Of a stretch of DNA of 64,000 nt, positions 31,975 through 62,012 are shown piece after piece. The number at the start of each line of letters is the position of its first letter. Positions within the stretch are counted from its first letter, which is position 1. The notes below the pieces were generated by a model. The model was given only the letters and a program-made list of their open reading frames with translations, was not told the origin of the DNA and searched no databases. This DNA comes from Prosthecobacter dejongeii (GTDB taxonomy: Bacteria > Verrucomicrobiota > Verrucomicrobiia > Verrucomicrobiales > Verrucomicrobiaceae), in NCBI RefSeq assembly GCF_014203045.1, contig NZ_JACHIF010000010.1, forward strand, positions 62,001 through 126,000, in the 5' to 3' direction. The position numbers were made by a program, and so were the translations under genes.

Positions 31975-34900
31975 TCAGCTCTTTCTCACCCTCGGCTTCT
32001 GGACCCGTAGCACCTCAAGTGTGTAACCAGCGCCGTTGTCAAAAGGCTGTACCTCCCCTGTCACTTCGACGACTGGGTATCTCACGGTGGCTAGCCCATG
32101 GTAGCGATAGGTCTCGGCAAAGATCTCGCATTCCACGATCCCACTTTGATCACAGATGGAGATGAATTTCATAGGCTCTCCGTTGGCCTGAATATGGGAT
32201 CGAGTCACGATGATCAGCCCGCAAACAGTCACTCTCTGCCTATGATACCGATGTAGGTCTGCGATGCGGCAATAAGTCCCCCAGCCGACTTCTGGAAATC
32301 GTTCCAAGGGATGCCCTGTGATTGTGTATCCCAGGAGCTCGAATTCATCACACAAGCGTTGCAGGCGCGACGGCTCTTCACGGAACGTCGTGCGCAATTC
32401 CTCATCCGTGCAATTCTGCAACAGCCATCCATCACCGACACTGCCATCGCGACTGGTATGCAGGCAGTGCCAAAACTGTTCTGTCCTTGGCATACCAAAT
32501 CCGTCCAAAGCCCCCACTCGAATAAGGCTCAGTGTTTCAGCAGGCTCGGGACGAACACGCTCACAAAAATCGCGAACCCCCAAGAATGCAGATCTCAGTT
32601 TTTCAGCTCTCCAACGCTCCAGCAGTGATTCACTAAGACCCTTGATGGAACGCATTGGCACTCGAATAGCTCGGCCTAGGTTCCGCGCTGGCGTTCCGCT
32701 TTCCACGGTCATTAATTCAACGTCAAACGAGTCCGTAGAGACGTTCACGTCAGGCGATAAAAAACCGATCCCCAACCGCCGACACTCCAAGGTGTAAACC
32801 AGAGGTGAATAAAACCCTTTCCCATTGGAGAGCACCGCAGCCATGAACTCCGCAGGGTGGTAACACTTGAGATAGGCACCTAGGTACGCCTCAACCCCGT
32901 AGGCCGTGCTGTGTGCCCGGCAAAAGGCATATCCTTGGAACCCACTCACCAACTGCCAGACCTTTTCAATGATTTCATCGTGGTGCCTCTTTGCTTTGGC
33001 TGCCGCAACAAACTCCACCTTCAGCTCTGCCACTTTCCTCATGTCCAGTTTGACCAAGGCTCGGCGCAACATGTCAGCTCGTCCAGGTGCCAGACCCGCA
33101 AAGGCTTCACAGATTTGTAGAATATGCTCTTCGTAGGCCACAACGCCAAAGGTTGAGCGAAGCACTCCGCTCAAGCTTTCATGGGTGTAATCCACAGGCT
33201 CCAATCCTTGAGCACGCCGTGCAAACTGGCTCTTTTTCAATCCATTGGCCGCGCCAGGTCTGATCACTGAGACAATGGCAATAAGCCGATCAATGTCCCT
33301 TACCGCAGCCATGCACGCTAAGCTTGTCATGGCAGGGCTTTCGATGTGGTGCACGCCTCTAGCATTACCTGAGGCGATCATCTCCCACACCGCTTCATCA
33401 GACCAAGCTTCCACACTCCCAGGACGTGGCGGGGATTCAGAGCCTCCCAAGCCGCCAATTTCCAAAGATTTTAAATCAACCGAGACTCCTTGTCGGCCTA
33501 AAGCTGTCTGAGCATCACGTAGAACAGCGAGTCCGCCTTGGGCGAGAATATCGAGTTTAATGAGCCCGACCGCCTCGACTGCATCCATGTCAAAATGAGT
33601 CGTTGGCCAGCCTTTTGCACTGGTAAAAACCGGAGTCAGAGTGCGGATGGGATCACGAGACAAGACCACGCCGCAGGGATGCATTTTGGCGTAACGTGGA
33701 AATCCGTCCAGCATGCCAGACATCAGCAAAGCCGTTCTGAGCGGCTCTTCTTTCCACTCCTCAAGATCACACTCACGCGAGACTGCTAACGCATCAGCCG
33801 CATGCTTGGCATCCGTCCAGGGCATGTGCTGGGTGAGTCGGCGAATCTCGTTTTCTGCGACTCCTAAAACCTTGGCAATATCGCCGAAAGCCGACCGCGC
33901 TTGAAAGGTATTAAAACCACCCACGATGGCAGCGTGCTCTGGCCCGTAGTGAGACAACAGGAGTTCCACCACGTCGTCTTTACGGTCATGCGCAAAATCA
34001 ATGTCGATGTCCGGCAGCTTTTGCAGCGCCATGCGGTCGCGATTAAGGAATCTCCGAAAATAGAGCTCAAAGCGGATGGGGCAGACATTGCTGATTTTCA
34101 GGCAATAACAAACCAGGGAATCGGCTGCGCTTCCTCGTGTGATCCAGTCAATACCCACAGCCTGACAGCGCTGCAATAGATCCCACACCATCAAAAAATA
34201 TTCCTCGTAACCGACTTCAGAAATGATCTCGAGTTCCTCATTCAACTGGGCCTCATATTGCCCCGCTTTCACTCCATACCTTGAGCGCAAACCCTCATGG
34301 GCCAAACGACGTAACATTATCGCTGGAGCACTGCCATCTTGAGGCTCATACTGCGGAAATCGCAGGGTCTTAAAGTCGAACGAAAAATTGCACTGCTCCC
34401 CCAGCTCATGCGCGGCTTGCAACGCCTCAGATGAATAGCAACCTGCCCAGTGAGTGGAATCATGAAACGCGAAGTCACCTCTGCGTTTTTTGGGATGACT
34501 CTCATGCAGGAGCGTGAGGGTCTTCATGCTCTGCAAAATGTCGAAGAACACTTTATCCTGCGGAGATCCATACCGAATCTCGGGCAAAGCTATTTCACTG
34601 CTATTAGCGGGCATGATGATCAGGCCTTCGTGGTGATCGTCGAGTTGCTCAGACGTCACACCAGCGTCTTCACCGAAGGACAAGAGACGGCAGAGATTCT
34701 GATATCCTCGGGTGCTTTGCACGTAAGCTAAGAGACGCTTTTTCCCGTGGTTGAGTTCCGCACCCACCACAGGCTTAATGCCGGCGGCTGATGCGGCCTG
34801 GAAAAACGGAATCGCAGCGTGCAGGTTGGGATCTGTGATCGCCACCATGGGCACTTCATGAGCTACCGCTTTCTCAATGATGGCGGGGATGGTGAGTGCC

Positions 34901-36231
34901 GAATCTAAAAAGCTGTAACAGCTCTTCACATTCAGTGCAGGCACAGAAGATTTCACAAATTTACGAACCAGGATCTCGGGTTTCAGGGTGACACGTTCCT
35001 GCAAGACTCTGTTCGTTGTCGAAGCACTCGCATCTGTGACCAGTCGAGGTTTGGGGAGCACCTGTCTTGGCGCATGCCGATGTTGCGACAACCACAAGTC
35101 ATGTCCACGCATAATGCTTTGATGACCACGCTTTAAATCATCCACCACCATCGCCAATGAATGCAGCCTTTCTCTTTTGGCATCAGATGCCTCCAGAGGA
35201 AGTAGCGCTGAAAAACTGGCGTGGTAAATTTTGGTGAAGCGCACCCCTACCAGACGAATGCTCACACGCCTTTCCCAGGCCTTCTTCAGCATCGCCTGCA
35301 TCAGCGGATAAACATCATGCTCCAGATCGGTTGGCTCATCCAAGCTCATAGAGCGTGTCACTTCGTCCATGTCATTGTAGCGAAGACGCAGAGTCACCGT
35401 GCGAATGCTTTTTCCGTCCTGCCTCACCCTCTGCATCAGCGTATCCACCATCGCTCGAAGCCTCGCGACAATGAAGGCCGTATCCGTGGTATCCTGGGGA
35501 AAGGTTTCCTGTTCTCCATAGCTCTTAGCCGCAGGGGCTTCACAGATCACCGGCCGCGCATCCAGACCCAGGGCATAATCTCTCAGCTCCACAGCACTCT
35601 TTCCTAACAGCAAAGACAGCTCGTCCAAAGGCGCTGAGGCGATGTGTCCTACACGGCAAAGCCCGGCTGTGTTTAATCTTGCTGCCAGTTGAGGGCCTAC
35701 CATGGGCAACCACTTGTTTTCCAGCGGCCATAAAAACCCCTGCTCATGCCCCGGTGCCACTTCAATGAAGCAGTGGGGTTTGTGCAGCTTGCTCGCGATT
35801 TGTGACACCAGCTTATTCGCACCCACTCCCACGGACACCGACAGTTTTAGACTCTGTGCAATCGCCGTCTGAATGGTCGCTGCGGTGCTGCCAGCCTTGC
35901 TTTGCAATGAGCCTGTTAAATCAAGGTAGCATTCATCAATGGAGGCCACTTCCACCACCGGAGTGAAGTCATAGGCGTAGCTGAACATCAGCTTGGAAAA
36001 GCGCTCGTATTTTTCAAAGTCCCCTGGCAACACAATCAGGCTGGGGCACAGCTTCTTGGCCTTAGCCGTTGGCATGGGGGTATAGACGCCCAGCTTTCGC
36101 GCCTCATAACTGGCCGAGGCAATCACCCCTCTTTTTTCTCCCCCCACGGCTACAGGCCTGCCTCGCAGTTTGCTATCAGCAGCCTGCTCAACGCTCGCAA
36201 AGAACGCATCCGCATCAAAGTGCAGGATCAT
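31975..36231 (-). CDS. Fused Y-family (DinB) and C-family (DnaE) DNA polymerase
   Basis: One 1418-residue frame containing two polymerases. Residues about 1-385 are a full Pol IV: catalytic Asp in ILHFDADAFFASVEQ (D6), D99/E100 in ASIDECYLDLTG, a helix-hairpin region and a little finger. After a linker (about 385-430) a DnaE-type polymerase follows: a PHP domain (NVKSCYSFLDSALTIP) that lost the His metal ligands, the palm with D741/D743 in LPDIDIDF and D894 in IKLDILAQGG, fingers, and a C-terminal OB-fold (VTVCGLIIVTRSH...). Both polymerase active sites look intact, unlike ImuB. It lies 6 bases after a UmuD-like gene under an SOS box, so DNA-damage-induced translesion synthesis is the likely role. 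Confidence 0.92.
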   Translation of the reverse strand: MILHFDADAFFASVEQAADSKLRGRPVAVGGEKRGVIASASYEARKLGVYTPMPTAKAKKLCPSLIVLPGDFEKYERFSKLMFSYAYDFTPVVEVASIDECYLDLTGSLQSKAGSTAATIQTAIAQSLKLSVSVGVGANKLVSQIASKLHKPHCFIEVAPGHEQGFLWPLENKWLPMVGPQLAARLNTAGLCRVGHIASAPLDELSLLLGKSAVELRDYALGLDARPVICEAPAAKSYGEQETFPQDTTDTAFIVARLRAMVDTLMQRVRQDGKSIRTVTLRLRYNDMDEVTRSMSLDEPTDLEHDVYPLMQAMLKKAWERRVSIRLVGVRFTKIYHASFSALLPLEASDAKRERLHSLAMVVDDLKRGHQSIMRGHDLWLSQHRHAPRQVLPKPRLVTDASASTTNRVLQERVTLKPEILVRKFVKSSVPALNVKSCYSFLDSALTIPAIIEKAVAHEVPMVAITDPNLHAAIPFFQAASAAGIKPVVGAELNHGKKRLLAYVQSTRGYQNLCRLLSFGEDAGVTSEQLDDHHEGLIIMPANSSEIALPEIRYGSPQDKVFFDILQSMKTLTLLHESHPKKRRGDFAFHDSTHWAGCYSSEALQAAHELGEQCNFSFDFKTLRFPQYEPQDGSAPAIMLRRLAHEGLRSRYGVKAGQYEAQLNEELEIISEVGYEEYFLMVWDLLQRCQAVGIDWITRGSAADSLVCYCLKISNVCPIRFELYFRRFLNRDRMALQKLPDIDIDFAHDRKDDVVELLLSHYGPEHAAIVGGFNTFQARSAFGDIAKVLGVAENEIRRLTQHMPWTDAKHAADALAVSRECDLEEWKEEPLRTALLMSGMLDGFPRYAKMHPCGVVLSRDPIRTLTPVFTSAKGWPTTHFDMDAVEAVGLIKLDILAQGGLAVLRDAQTALGRQGVSVDLKSLEIGGLGGSESPPRPGSVEAWSDEAVWEMIASGNARGVHHIESPAMTSLACMAAVRDIDRLIAIVSVIRPGAANGLKKSQFARRAQGLEPVDYTHESLSGVLRSTFGVVAYEEHILQICEAFAGLAPGRADMLRRALVKLDMRKVAELKVEFVAAAKAKRHHDEIIEKVWQLVSGFQGYAFCRAHSTAYGVEAYLGAYLKCYHPAEFMAAVLSNGKGFYSPLVYTLECRRLGIGFLSPDVNVSTDSFDVELMTVESGTPARNLGRAIRVPMRSIKGLSESLLERWRAEKLRSAFLGVRDFCERVRPEPAETLSLIRVGALDGFGMPRTEQFWHCLHTSRDGSVGDGWLLQNCTDEELRTTFREEPSRLQRLCDEFELLGYTITGHPLERFPEVGWGTYCRIADLHRYHRQRVTVCGLIIVTRSHIQANGEPMKFISICDQSGIVECEIFAETYRYHGLATVRYPVVEVTGEVQPFDNGAGYTLEVLRVQKPRVRKS

Positions 36232-36237
36232 AGCTGA

Positions 36238-36690
36238 TCACCTCTCTGGGAGCCTCAGAAGAGCAATCTGCACGCCTTGGATGACCAGCTCTCTAGCCGG
36301 GATGAGGTCTGGGTATTTCACATTGGCTGCCCGCAGGTAAGGCACGCCTGCCTGCAAAATGAACCGCTTCAGGGTGGTTTCACCATCAATGAGAGCTGCA
36401 ACAATGTCTCCATGCCGGGGCTCCCGAAACTCCATGATCACCACATCTCCCTCCAAGATGCCCGCCCCCTTCATCGAATCTCCGCGCACTTTAAGGGCAA
36501 AGGTCCTGGCATTCTTCGGCAACCTCAGCGTGTCGAAATCCACATCCAGGCAGTAATCCTGCCTCCCTTCCTGAATCTCCGGCCTTCCCGCCACAATGCT
36601 GCCAAGCAACGGTACACGGCGGAGAGAGAAGCGGTTGGCGAGAGTTTGCCAGAGCATCTGTAGCGATAAAACTTGGCGTGAGGTGAGCAT
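36238..36690 (-). CDS. UmuD/LexA-like self-cleaving S24 peptidase
   Basis: A 150-residue protein with the S24 serine-lysine autoprotease fold. The scissile Ala34-Gly35 lies in GSIVAGRPEI, the nucleophile Ser72 in VRGDSMKGAGI, and Lys108 in GETTLKRFI. Only about 33 residues precede the cleavage site, too few for LexA's winged-helix domain, so it resembles UmuD (139 residues, cleavage at 24-25) rather than a repressor. UmuD' activates an error-prone polymerase after RecA-stimulated cleavage. The gene is first in the operon with the double polymerase and has a palindromic SOS box 15 bases ahead of its start. Confidence 0.85.
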   Translation of the reverse strand: MLTSRQVLSLQMLWQTLANRFSLRRVPLLGSIVAGRPEIQEGRQDYCLDVDFDTLRLPKNARTFALKVRGDSMKGAGILEGDVVIMEFREPRHGDIVAALIDGETTLKRFILQAGVPYLRAANVKYPDLIPARELVIQGVQIALLRLPER

Positions 36691-36705
36691 GGCCCCACTG
36701 AATAC

Positions 36706-36719
36706 TGTTCATTAGAACA
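36706..36719 (-). promoter_or_regulatory. LexA/SOS box
   Basis: Perfect palindrome TGTTC-ATTA-GAACA ending 16 bases before the UmuD-like start codon. It matches the TGTTC-N4-GAACA motif I recall as the verrucomicrobial LexA site. It overlaps the expected promoter and would repress the operon until DNA damage. No second perfect copy was seen in the window. Confidence 0.75.
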
Positions 36720-36752
36720 TTTTCAAGAGCCTCCTGTGTTTTTTCACCCGCT

Positions 36753-36813
36753 CCCCAGAGAGAACACGACCGTTGCCCCAAAAAGGACATCAACCAATGG
36801 TTGATTATGTGAA
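36753..36813 (+). repeat. Dispersed direct repeat, copy A
   Basis: Starts CCCCAGAGAGAACACGACCG and ends with a hairpin ATCAACC (36789-36795) / GGTTGAT (36799-36805) and TGTGAAG. Copy B at 37727-37796 shares this order with small insertions. Together they bracket two small plus-strand genes. Confidence 0.55.
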
Positions 36814-36933
36814 GCAGCAAAATGCAGGTGGAACATACCTAAGACAAGATGGAACGCCGTCGCTTTTGCCAAAAGGCGGGCTACACGATGGCGACGCCCA
36901 CATGCCACTAGATCAATTCCAATTTCGTCTGTA

Positions 36934-37299
36934 ATGAATTTAGAGCTTATCCATGAATCGTTGAGGGAGCTTTCAGATGAAGTGCTTCAGAGTGCTCTTT
37001 GGACGGGCAAGTCGGACGGGGAGCAATCTTCCTTCACTGAAGCAGTTTGCGTATTGTTCAACGATGCTGGATTGGAAAAAGCGTTGGACTCTGGAAATTT
37101 GGATAAGGATTATTCAAAATCACTGTGCCGTCGGGCTCGGCAGCTTCGTGCGCTGGTAAATATGATCGATGACACGGGAACGCCTGAGCAGACGCTAGGT
37201 CACGCCAAAATGGACGCACTGCGTGATGCTGCACGTGAACTCATGGAACTGTTCACCACTGAAACAAGGCACCAAACACCCGGTTCTCCTCCAGCATGA
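36934..37299 (+). CDS. Small cytoplasmic protein of a cassette
   Basis: A 121-residue, largely helical, acidic protein (MNLELIHESLRELSDEVLQ, YSKSLCRRARQLRALVNMID, ALRDAARELMELF). No membrane or catalytic motif and no recognised family. Size, charge and position next to an Imm8-like gene make an immunity- or antitoxin-type role possible, but this is inference. 44 bases separate it from the next gene. Confidence 0.55.
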   Translation: MNLELIHESLRELSDEVLQSALWTGKSDGEQSSFTEAVCVLFNDAGLEKALDSGNLDKDYSKSLCRRARQLRALVNMIDDTGTPEQTLGHAKMDALRDAARELMELFTTETRHQTPGSPPA

Positions 37300-37343
37300 A
37301 CTTCGAAACAGCGGCAAAGCATCGGACACATTAACGTAACACC

Positions 37344-37700
37344 ATGATGCGAGCAGAACTCAAACGGCTTCACTATCCAGATATGGACATCGAGTCCTTT
37401 TGGCCGGACGATCCAGAGTGCTTTCATTTCCTCATGCAGGCCATGATTGGGCCAGAAGGCACTGACACAGAGGAGTCGTTCGACTTTGAGGTATCCACGC
37501 CCAAGTGGCTGTTACAGCACCGCGCTTCACAATGTTTCATGTTCGGTCATCACATGATACTCGCCTTCGATTATGACCTAAAAGTCATCGAAGCACGAGT
37601 GAGAAGCCTTTGCTCTAGGACCACGGGAGAGACTTGGGAACAAATAGCCTCAAAACTATCGCAATTCGGAAGATGGGAATTTGAAGATTATCGTCCATAA
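37344..37700 (+). CDS. Imm8-like immunity protein
   Basis: A 118-residue protein resembling the Imm8 family of polymorphic-toxin immunity proteins: MRAELKRLHYPDMDIESFWP, FLMQAMIGPEGTDTEESFDF and STPKWLLQH are the family's characteristic order. Such proteins neutralise a specific toxin. No cognate toxin gene is adjacent, so it looks like an orphan, carried in a cassette bounded by direct repeats. The frame could start at the first or second ATG (37344/37347). Confidence 0.7.
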   Translation: MMRAELKRLHYPDMDIESFWPDDPECFHFLMQAMIGPEGTDTEESFDFEVSTPKWLLQHRASQCFMFGHHMILAFDYDLKVIEARVRSLCSRTTGETWEQIASKLSQFGRWEFEDYRP

Positions 37701-37808: not shown

Positions 37809-38603
37809 TCACAATTCCAATCCCAATTCAGGCGTCTCATTTTCGTCCGCGACCGACACATCATCCATTTGAGGAACGGGCGAGCTAATGGGAACCAAAG
37901 ATTCTGCGGATTTATTCTGAGGCAGCAAAGCAGCATTCGACACCCGGTAAGCCTCCAACAGCTCACTTTCGTAAGGCTGGAAAAAAGACTGCAGCTCCTC
38001 TTTTGCTTGTCCAGGTGACAACCAGGCCAAAGCCCTTTCACCGTCCAAAACTAGCGGACTACGGTCATGGAACTTGGCCATGTATCGGCCCGGAGGCGTC
38101 GTCACCACACTCATTGAGGTATGCATAGGGCCTGAAGCCTGATCCTCAGCCAAAGGGCTTTGCCAAACATCCCAGATAGCAGCCAGCAGCAGAGGAGACC
38201 CGTCCGCATTGTGAATGAAATAGGGTGTGCCACGGTCGGGCCACTCATGCCAGCCGGTCACAGGAACAAGGCAGCGTCTTTGCATCACTGCCTGACGATA
38301 GGAGGCCAATTCAAAAATCGTCTCGGACCGGGCATTGAACGTGAGCCTGAATTTCTTGTTCACCTCCGCCTTGCCACCTTTTGCCCAGCTAGGAATGAGG
38401 CCAAACCGCATCCGTGTCGCCACGAGTTCACTTTCCTCCATCGTCAAAACATCAGCATAATCTGTGGGGCACAAATTGTGAATGCTAGGAGCCTGAGAAC
38501 GCACATCCTCCTTCCCTGAGTCTTTCCGTCGCTCCACACGCAAAGCCCGCCCCGCTAGAGACAACGCAGGGAGCTTCGCAAACTGATTGAGACGACCGCA
38601 CAT
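37809..38603 (-). CDS. SRAP (HMCES/YedK) abasic-site processing protein
   Basis: A 264-residue protein that crosslinks through its N-terminal cysteine to abasic sites in single-stranded DNA and shields them. The catalytic Cys2 is in MCGRLNQF; NARSETIFE, CLVPVTGWHEWPDRG (with the conserved Glu) and FHDRSPLVL (with the active-site His) complete the family set. The last 40 residues are a lineage-specific acidic tail. SRAP genes often accompany SOS translesion polymerases, and one lies 1.1 kb away here. The gene has no visible SOS box. Confidence 0.93.
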   Translation of the reverse strand: MCGRLNQFAKLPALSLAGRALRVERRKDSGKEDVRSQAPSIHNLCPTDYADVLTMEESELVATRMRFGLIPSWAKGGKAEVNKKFRLTFNARSETIFELASYRQAVMQRRCLVPVTGWHEWPDRGTPYFIHNADGSPLLLAAIWDVWQSPLAEDQASGPMHTSMSVVTTPPGRYMAKFHDRSPLVLDGERALAWLSPGQAKEELQSFFQPYESELLEAYRVSNAALLPQNKSAESLVPISSPVPQMDDVSVADENETPELGLEL

Positions 38604-61982: not shown

Positions 61983-62012
61983 AAAAGGGTCCCGGAAAAT
62001 CCGAGGCCCTTT
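61983..62012 (-). terminator. Terminator after the DUF932 gene
   Basis: AAAGGG (61984-61989) pairs with CCCTTT (62007-62012), with an inner CGGA/TCCG pairing. A short T-run follows on the minus strand. It lies between convergent genes, so it may serve both directions. Confidence 0.6.

Follow-up and report, generated by a model that had tools for sequence, protein, structure and literature searches.

Modules in which dinB, the gene for an active Y-family polymerase (PolY), is paired with dnaE2 have been described in Bacteroidetes (PMC6511836, PMC12926913), and the accessible text of the second paper reports a survey of more than 3000 complete genomes with 11 module types. Here we describe a locus of Prosthecobacter dejongeii that lies in a 64,000-nucleotide stretch of DNA, referred to below as the window (positions 62,001 to 126,000 of contig NZ_JACHIF010000010.1, assembly GCF_014203045.1). 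Judged from its sequence, the locus encodes, in a single polypeptide, a Y-family polymerase of the DinB-like kind followed by a C-family polymerase resembling DnaE2. The gene product is probably a translesion mutasome under SOS induction, built as a single chain: an active DnaE2-type polymerase fused to an active DinB-like polymerase that carries a RecA-binding motif. The pairing itself is known; what is new is the fusion, with its LexA/UmuD-like partner. An earlier inspection of the window (the sequence-only reading) was aware of no characterized fusion of this type, and we also found no report of a PolY-DnaE fusion in the literature searched, which was covered in part and had most subscription papers outside it. 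The presence of two active polymerases in one module is not in itself a novelty, as this is already known from Bacteroidetes.

The frame of 1418 codons is uninterrupted, as the sequence-only reading had stated, and runs on the minus strand (36231-31975), which that reading had not named. Its description of a DinB-like polymerase followed in the same frame by a DnaE-like polymerase is confirmed by the Pfam domain order. The chain stops after the OB domain, and Pfam detects no further Pol III C-terminal domain. When the protein was compared with NCBIfam, Pol IV models matched the Y half and Pol III alpha or error-prone polymerase models matched the C half, with a best E value of 1.9e-165 that is beyond chance. 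All of these matches are below the curated cut-offs except the one to the polc superfamily, and NCBIfam has no model for a PolY plus DnaE2 pair. The Y half scores up to 269.5 bits with Pol IV models (likewise under their cut-offs) and 60.8 bits with UmuC (cut-off 431), and so it is not of the UmuC type. For the C half, the error-prone polymerase model PRK05672 gives 464.8 bits, under a cut-off of 939. A structure model of residues 336-1418 has a mean predicted local distance difference test score (pLDDT) of 75.6 and a predicted template modeling score (pTM) of 0.73, with residues 384-427 below a pLDDT of 50. The best PDB match of the modeled C half is Mycobacterium tuberculosis Pol III alpha (7pu7), with a template modeling score of 0.74.

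The P. dejongeii assembly (5,995,932 bases in 22 contigs) contains a second copy of the fusion that is 74% identical to the one in the window. Besides the two fusions, its C-family complement is one DnaE1 gene, and its Y-family complement is a Pol IV-like gene plus a 40-amino-acid remnant. A pattern scan of genome_contigs (∼85,000 genomes), made with clade-specific patterns that cover other phyla poorly, yielded 76 loci, nearly all labelled Verrucomicrobiota or Kiritimatiellota. Some bins within the fusion clade are labelled, for example, Klebsiella pneumoniae or Akkermansia muciniphila, which looks like mislabelling. The fusion is present at 68 of these loci: 53 have a frame spanning both halves (among them L081, with a frameshift in the Y part), 10 are cut by contig ends, and 5 are broken within a contig. 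The remaining eight are four loci cut in or just after the Y part (L066, L110, L116, L119), three with PolY only (L117, L120, L121), and a distant Microbacterium match (L122). Among the matches listed for 387 genomes of the phylum, at least four genomes have the fusion (G000, G187, G339, and G294, where it is split in two by contig ends); this figure is a lower bound, with two candidates scored per genome.

Several other origins for the long frames were considered and rejected. No relative came from the scan of viral_contigs, and phage records all cover less than 80% of the chain. Among the best 5000 plasmid records, eight have a place covering 80% of the chain, each in two pieces; six of these have separate annotated genes, and two Persicobacter records, which carry no gene annotation, show two frames. 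Inteins were set aside because the inserts look low-complexity or repeat-derived by eye, no intein model having been run. Inserts of 65-127 amino acids at L077, L082, L085, L100, L114, and L115 resemble, by eye, coding copies of repeat elements. Two loci record losses of sequence. At L109 (5236-6777), nearly all of DnaE2 has been lost in frame, such that PolY, the RecA N-terminus-like (RecA-NT) motif described below, and the start of PHP run into the OB tail. The remnant of a third cassette is found in the P. dejongeii genome (L152, contig C3, 198252-198814), where part of the S24 gene and the first PolY codons (92% identical to the window) lead directly into the final 89 bases of the DnaE2 half. 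An integrase-like frame, identified by eye, is located near this remnant.

Both catalytic centres had been described as intact, and alignments agree with this view and indicate that they are conserved. In an alignment with Escherichia coli Pol IV chains, D6 and D99/E100 fall on the catalytic positions of DinB. In the C half, D741/D743 lie within the PDIDxDF motif and D894 within the LxKxDxL motif of Pol III alpha, and we take these three residues to be the catalytic aspartates of that enzyme. The loci were aligned in 73 rows, including some genomes twice (L038/L071, L039/L090). Position 6 is Asp in all 70 filled rows and position 99 is Asp in 69 of 71, the exceptions being L065, which has Glu, and L081, where the position is inside the frameshift. 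E100 is kept in 70 of 71 filled rows, D741 and D743 in 68 of 68, and D894 in 65 of 65. L065 shares a single Prosthecobacter bin with another fusion, L067. The ratio of nonsynonymous to synonymous substitution (omega) indicates purifying selection on both halves. For the Y half it is 0.03-0.22 across 15 pairs. For the PolC half it is 0.06-0.14 in 13 of the 14 computable pairs and 0.61 in the other (L101/L107), and the linker is looser than both halves (0.02-0.41; 13 computable pairs). The fusion protein looks functional.

The loss of His ligands from the PHP domain, another claim of the sequence-only reading, is confirmed: the fusion has LNVKSC and TDP-NLH where DnaE1 of the same genome has LHLHSE and TDHGNL. 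As aligned, the PHP active site is disrupted, as for error-prone DnaE2. According to the part of PMC12926913 that is accessible, loss of these ligands is usual for DnaE2, so it is not peculiar to the fusion. Several fusions outside the window's clade (Verrucomicrobiaceae by label or tree) retain HxHSH in the first PHP motif and have no TDH histidine.

Three features that are absent from the sequence-only reading, namely a RecA-NT motif, a UmuD/LexA-like gene, and a LexA box, tell more of the mechanism than does the join. Residues ∼348-378 behind the little finger, RERLHSLAMVVDDLKRGHQSIMRGHD, resemble the N terminus of the RecA protein encoded by the same genome, RSRNLDLAIQQIQKDFGEGSILRM. In a single hhalign comparison, 71 fusion rows were matched to 16 RecA rows (a usable N terminus came from 16 of 26 loci) with a score of 22.3, a probability of 61%, and an E value of 8e-5. 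Column-shuffled RecA profiles scored 8.4 ± 1.9 with a maximum of 14.1, and none of the 100 was as high as the real profile. The structure model predicts a helix at 349-368 for the motif. The available portions of PMC6511836 and PMC12926913 describe such a motif, propose that it binds RecA, and report it from most Y-family groups.

The upstream gene encodes an S24 peptidase in which Pfam finds no DNA-binding domain. Its A-G cleavage site and the Ser and Lys residues are present in all 24 S24 rows of the window's clade. The protein therefore has the hallmarks expected of a UmuD-like protein, namely an S24 domain with cleavage site and Ser-Lys dyad and no DNA-binding domain, although its NCBIfam scores are under the cut-offs for both UmuD (PRK10276, 66.6 bits, cut-off 110) and lexA (76.9 bits, cut-off 110.95). 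Of the 68 fusion loci, 60 have an S24 frame upstream (51 of them at a distance of no more than 60 nucleotides), and three of the eight loci that have none are cut at the 5′ end. Outside the window's clade, these frames are mostly 205-240 amino acids long (134-343 overall). The sequence TGTTCATTAGAACA in front of the S24 gene is an exact match to what we take to be the LexA box consensus, and nothing else in the window matches with one mismatch or fewer. The same box is found near lexA and recA of P. dejongeii, which retains a full LexA (217 amino acids) elsewhere in its genome. All 24 cassettes of the window's clade have the exact box (for G187, by direct scan of the upstream stretch).

A candidate clamp contact is provided by the loop between the HhH and OB domains, which reads QGWLL, QGWLI, or xDWLF in many fusions. 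At the same position, three Verrucomicrobiota DnaE1s have QGGLF, QVSLF, and QVSMF. Y-family clamp motifs sit behind the little finger, and the corresponding stretch of the fusion reads ELPLE or similar.

To place the two halves, quick maximum-likelihood trees were built from the loci; short parts were left out, as were L036, L038, L039, L081, L087, L109, and L115, which are duplicates or are broken or cut. The branches are long, which makes fine detail unsafe. In the tree rooted on DnaE1, 58 fusion C parts form one clade with a Shimodaira-Hasegawa-like approximate likelihood ratio (SH-aLRT) support of 100. Its sister is a solo DnaE2 from a different genome of the phylum (L040, 2788-6270), a frame of 1161 amino acids with no neighbouring PolY within the 12 kb fetched. 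The next outgroups are DnaE2s from adjacent Y-C pairs of Bacteroidota (the dinB-dnaE pairs of Chryseobacterium, Emticicia, Persicobacter, and Adhaeribacter plasmids) and of Desulfosarcina (plasmid). The C halves and this Bacteroidota/Desulfosarcina group are united at SH-aLRT 98, with the Novosphingobium/Manganitrophus and Streptomyces DnaE2s outside. The Streptomyces protein, termed DnaE2B in the cited paper, is placed elsewhere than the fusion C halves.

Fusion rows, cut rows, and rows with PolY only come together in the Y tree as one clade of 73 (support 98). The three PolY-only rows are nested within it, and their genes end after the RecA-NT motif. Because of this nesting, the simplest reading is a single fusion event with later loss of DnaE2. 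One locus, L102 (844-5145; labelled K. pneumoniae, probably a mislabelled bin), has a C half near that of L083 (nonsynonymous distance, dN, 0.06) and a Y half that groups with another lineage (dN 0.21 to L083), and its halves may have recombined.

The distribution of the fusion was compared with that of ImuB in 59 genomes of the family. A fusion was called as a frame of at least 796 amino acids, on length and IMS score only, and an ImuB-like gene as a frame of 479-645 amino acids that matches IMS weakly; short frames in G417 (94 amino acids), G410 (93), and G434 (288) were left out of the count. A fusion-size frame is present in 21 genomes (22 with one that is cut), an ImuB-like gene in 21, and both in 2. 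This near-exclusion (Fisher p of 0.0019, or 0.0016 with the cut fusion) speaks for the proposed reading. At each of the seven ImuB-like loci opened of these 21, there is an exact LexA box, and the adjoining DnaE2 resembles Novosphingobium DnaE2A far more closely than it does the fusion C half. At six of the seven, the gene before imuB resembles a Manganitrophus plasmid protein at the same place (E values of 9e-5 to 4e-10). The NCBIfam ImuA model matches three of these six genes weakly, under its cut-off, and annotated Novosphingobium ImuA has no match at the seven loci. The gene at the imuA place in the six loci is likely ImuA, to judge from these similarities. The ImuB protein of a sister genome and its protein at the imuA place, used as queries, identified no orthologue in P. 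dejongeii or G187, and the same queries did find orthologues in all three positive controls (G190, G408, and G234). In P. dejongeii, the only matches to the ImuB query are the two fusions (E values of 5e-7 and 1e-6), and no second RecA-family match above the cut-off is present in this genome. In many genomes, the fusion appears to take the place of the imuA-imuB-dnaE2 cassette. The fusion does not appear to carry an ImuB-C domain, for which no profile search was made: only ∼55 residues, mostly of low confidence in the model, lie between the RecA-NT motif and PHP.

Our working model for the locus starts with DNA damage, upon which RecA would assemble on single-stranded DNA and LexA would be cleaved. 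The operon of the umuD-like gene and the fusion would then be derepressed through the box observed upstream. RecA would also trigger self-cleavage of the UmuD-like protein, for which the cleavage-site and dyad residues are in place, and the processed form might join the Y half much as UmuD′ joins UmuC. The RecA-NT motif may take up a RecA protomer that activates or targets the complex. The Y half would insert opposite the lesion and the DnaE2 half, held nearby through the ∼45-residue disordered linker, would extend past it without PHP proofreading, although we infer both these activities and the order of the hand-over. The DnaE2 half possibly touches the clamp via its QGWLL/DWLF loop. In sum, we tentatively propose a chain with two active sites that switches within the molecule from Y-family insertion to C-family extension at a single primer end, with RecA exerting a twofold control through RecA-NT docking and a LexA-derived, UmuD-like subunit without DNA-binding domain; we give this detailed scheme slightly less than an even chance of being correct.

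Work on bypass by an inserter and then an extender generally relies on separate proteins trading places on the clamp, and for this reason order and hand-over are hard to see. With a chain of fixed 1:1 stoichiometry and tethered sites, the exchange becomes directly testable by single-site mutants. More broadly, some Verrucomicrobiota encode two damage-tolerance-type polymerases, which are normally separate, as one long protein behind a damage-response control site.

Other explanations for the long frame must be weighed against a single-chain mutasome. The chance that two neighbouring genes were joined by an assembly or annotation error is vanishingly small. We found no support for such an artefact, and it is rejected because the genome has a second copy and many separate assemblies have the same join in the same order; low omega values in both halves also argue against it. 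Homologues are not consistently split, and the three PolY-only genes sit within the fusion clade. It is unlikely, but worth keeping in mind, that the join is only a device for co-expression, with the chain being processed into two polymerases or its halves acting independently on different lesions without a hand-over. The linker is predicted to be disordered and is loosely constrained, as would be a protease-prone or functionless spacer, and relatives carry two genes in a row. On the other hand, the join persists throughout a deep clade in which PolY-only cases are few. No ATG is found between codons 381 and 461 of the window gene, and the GTG and TTG codons there have no clear ribosome site by eye in this one gene.

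One half only might be catalytic: the Y half would serve mainly as a scaffold and receiver of RecA like dead ImuB, its active site rarely used, and DnaE2 would carry out the mutagenic synthesis. The accessible text on ImuB-DnaE2 describes that system in such terms (PMC6511836, PMC3919608), and the Glu at one Y catalytic Asp of L065 would be in keeping with it. We nevertheless regard this explanation as quite improbable, given that the Y catalytic residues are otherwise invariant, that omega is lower for the Y half than for the PolC half in 11 of the 14 comparable pairs (with one tie), and that PolY-only genes at three loci nest in the clade.

A number of observations weigh against an SOS-induced single-chain mutasome, or restrict how widely such a reading can be applied. 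The model of residues 1-637 has a mean pLDDT of 68.9 and a pTM of 0.37 and is unreliable at the Y palm, and because of this poor model the integrity of the Y fold is argued from sequence. The hhalign probability for the RecA-NT motif is no higher than the value given above, and a lax Pfam scan of the segment (E values up to 10) gave no match. The candidate clamp motif is degenerate in the window protein (DGWLL). At L117, L120, and L121, LexA and PolY are kept and DnaE2 is absent, so the C half is dispensable there. Outside the window's clade, all five upstream genes tested encode full LexA with LexA_DNA_bind, and a UmuD role is therefore not general. The LexA of the cassette thus seems to have turned UmuD-like in the window's clade. 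The exact box is found at 3 of 46 S24 loci outside the clade and is absent from 43, four of which have one mismatch, in a scan that began at the frame rather than at the true start and so can miss boxes. Neither system is present in 19 of the 59 family genomes (18 counting the cut fusion), and 2 of the 21 fusion genomes also carry an ImuB-like gene. The Fisher test for near-exclusion of the two systems ignores phylogeny, and its p value is 0.044 within the genus and 0.27 in the other 20 genomes.

The coordinates of the locus are collected in the table. A gene for an SOS-response-associated peptidase (SRAP) is found near 15 of the 24 cassettes of the window's clade, and some of the other loci are cut short. 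Between SRAP and the cassette in the window (36934-37700), there are a gene of 121 amino acids without a Pfam match and an Imm8 immunity-like gene, both on the opposite strand. This pair is confined, among the loci fetched, to the two P. dejongeii cassettes. The stretch from Imm8 to umuD is ∼94%-97% identical between these two cassettes (window 36200-37700 versus L034 4700-6200), and its flanks have diverged (SRAP, 65% amino acid identity; polymerase, ∼74%). Such a pattern suggests either recent gene conversion or a copied insert. Farther away, positions 38937-61950 hold a run of genes resembling a defence island, with an RtcR-type CARF sigma-54 activator, an AAA/OLD-like ATPase, and type I restriction, methylase, and specificity genes. 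This run also includes very large frames, one of 1204 amino acids without a PADLOC match and another of 2007 amino acids.

Table. Positions in the window of the fusion gene, its domains and motifs, and the adjoining genes
Feature	Position	Strand	Basis
PolY::DnaE2 fusion gene, 1418 aa	31975..36231	-	open frame; Pfam order; 68 fusion loci elsewhere
Y-family palm/fingers, IMS residues 6-148, putative catalytic D6, D99, E100	35788..36216	-	Pfam; Pol IV alignment
Y-family little finger, IMS_C residues 236-335	35227..35526	-	Pfam
RecA-NT-like motif, residues ∼348-378	35098..35190	-	profile-profile match; predicted helix
Linker, residues ∼384-427, predicted disordered	34951..35082	-	pLDDT <50; poorly conserved, length changes
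PHP domain of DnaE2 half, residues 433-540, metal ligands lost	34612..34935	-	Pfam; alignment
C-family polymerase core, DNA_pol3_alpha residues 639-897, putative catalytic D741, D743, D894	33541..34317	-	Pfam
C-family finger domain, residues 943-1081	32989..33405	-	Pfam
Tandem HhH, HHH_6 residues 1154-1251	32479..32772	-	Pfam
Candidate beta-clamp motif DGWLL, residues 1267-1271	32419..32433	-	aligned with DnaE1 motifs
OB domain, residues 1334-1411	31999..32232	-	Pfam
UmuD-like S24 peptidase, 150 aa	36238..36690	-	6 bp upstream of fusion
LexA box TGTTCATTAGAACA	36706..36719	.	exact match, 15 bp upstream of S24 start codon
SRAP gene	37809..38603	-	same direction as cassette, recurrent neighbour

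Each of the known systems that resemble this locus shares some of its features. The lexA-imuB-C-polY operon of Geobacter likewise has lexA first and an active PolY, but as described in the accessible text of PMC6511836 it has a standalone ImuB-C, no DnaE2, and no fusion. Pol V (UmuD′2C-RecA) also has a UmuD-like S24 gene upstream and a Y-family polymerase with a RecA-NT motif. In contrast, the Y half of the fusion scores as Pol IV/DinB rather than UmuC, and a whole second polymerase has been added. The ImuA-ImuB-DnaE2 mutasome, which appears to be the alternative in sister genomes, is similarly a LexA-box cassette with DnaE2 and a Y-family protein. It comprises a catalytically dead ImuB with an ImuB-C domain, an ImuA, and a DnaE2 of the A branch (PMC12926913, as far as its available text goes), whereas the fusion has apparently intact Y catalytic residues and no ImuA partner. 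The nearest known system is the DnaE2B-PolY-RecA module of Bacteroidetes (PMC12926913, PMC6511836, both as accessible), in which an active PolY with a RecA-NT motif likewise stands by DnaE2 and ImuA and ImuB are absent. P. dejongeii appears to match this description, with an active-type PolY, a RecA-NT motif, and neither ImuA nor ImuB found in its genome. The nearest outgroups of the C halves include the DnaE2s of Bacteroidota dinB-dnaE pairs, and in Emticicia and Adhaeribacter a SRAP gene is close by, as at the window. A LexA/UmuD-like gene usually precedes the fusion, and such a gene is not listed for the DnaE2B-PolY-RecA module in the accessible descriptions (PMC12926913, PMC6511836). Finally, dinB and dnaE are two genes encoding separate subunits in that module, whereas here they form one chain.

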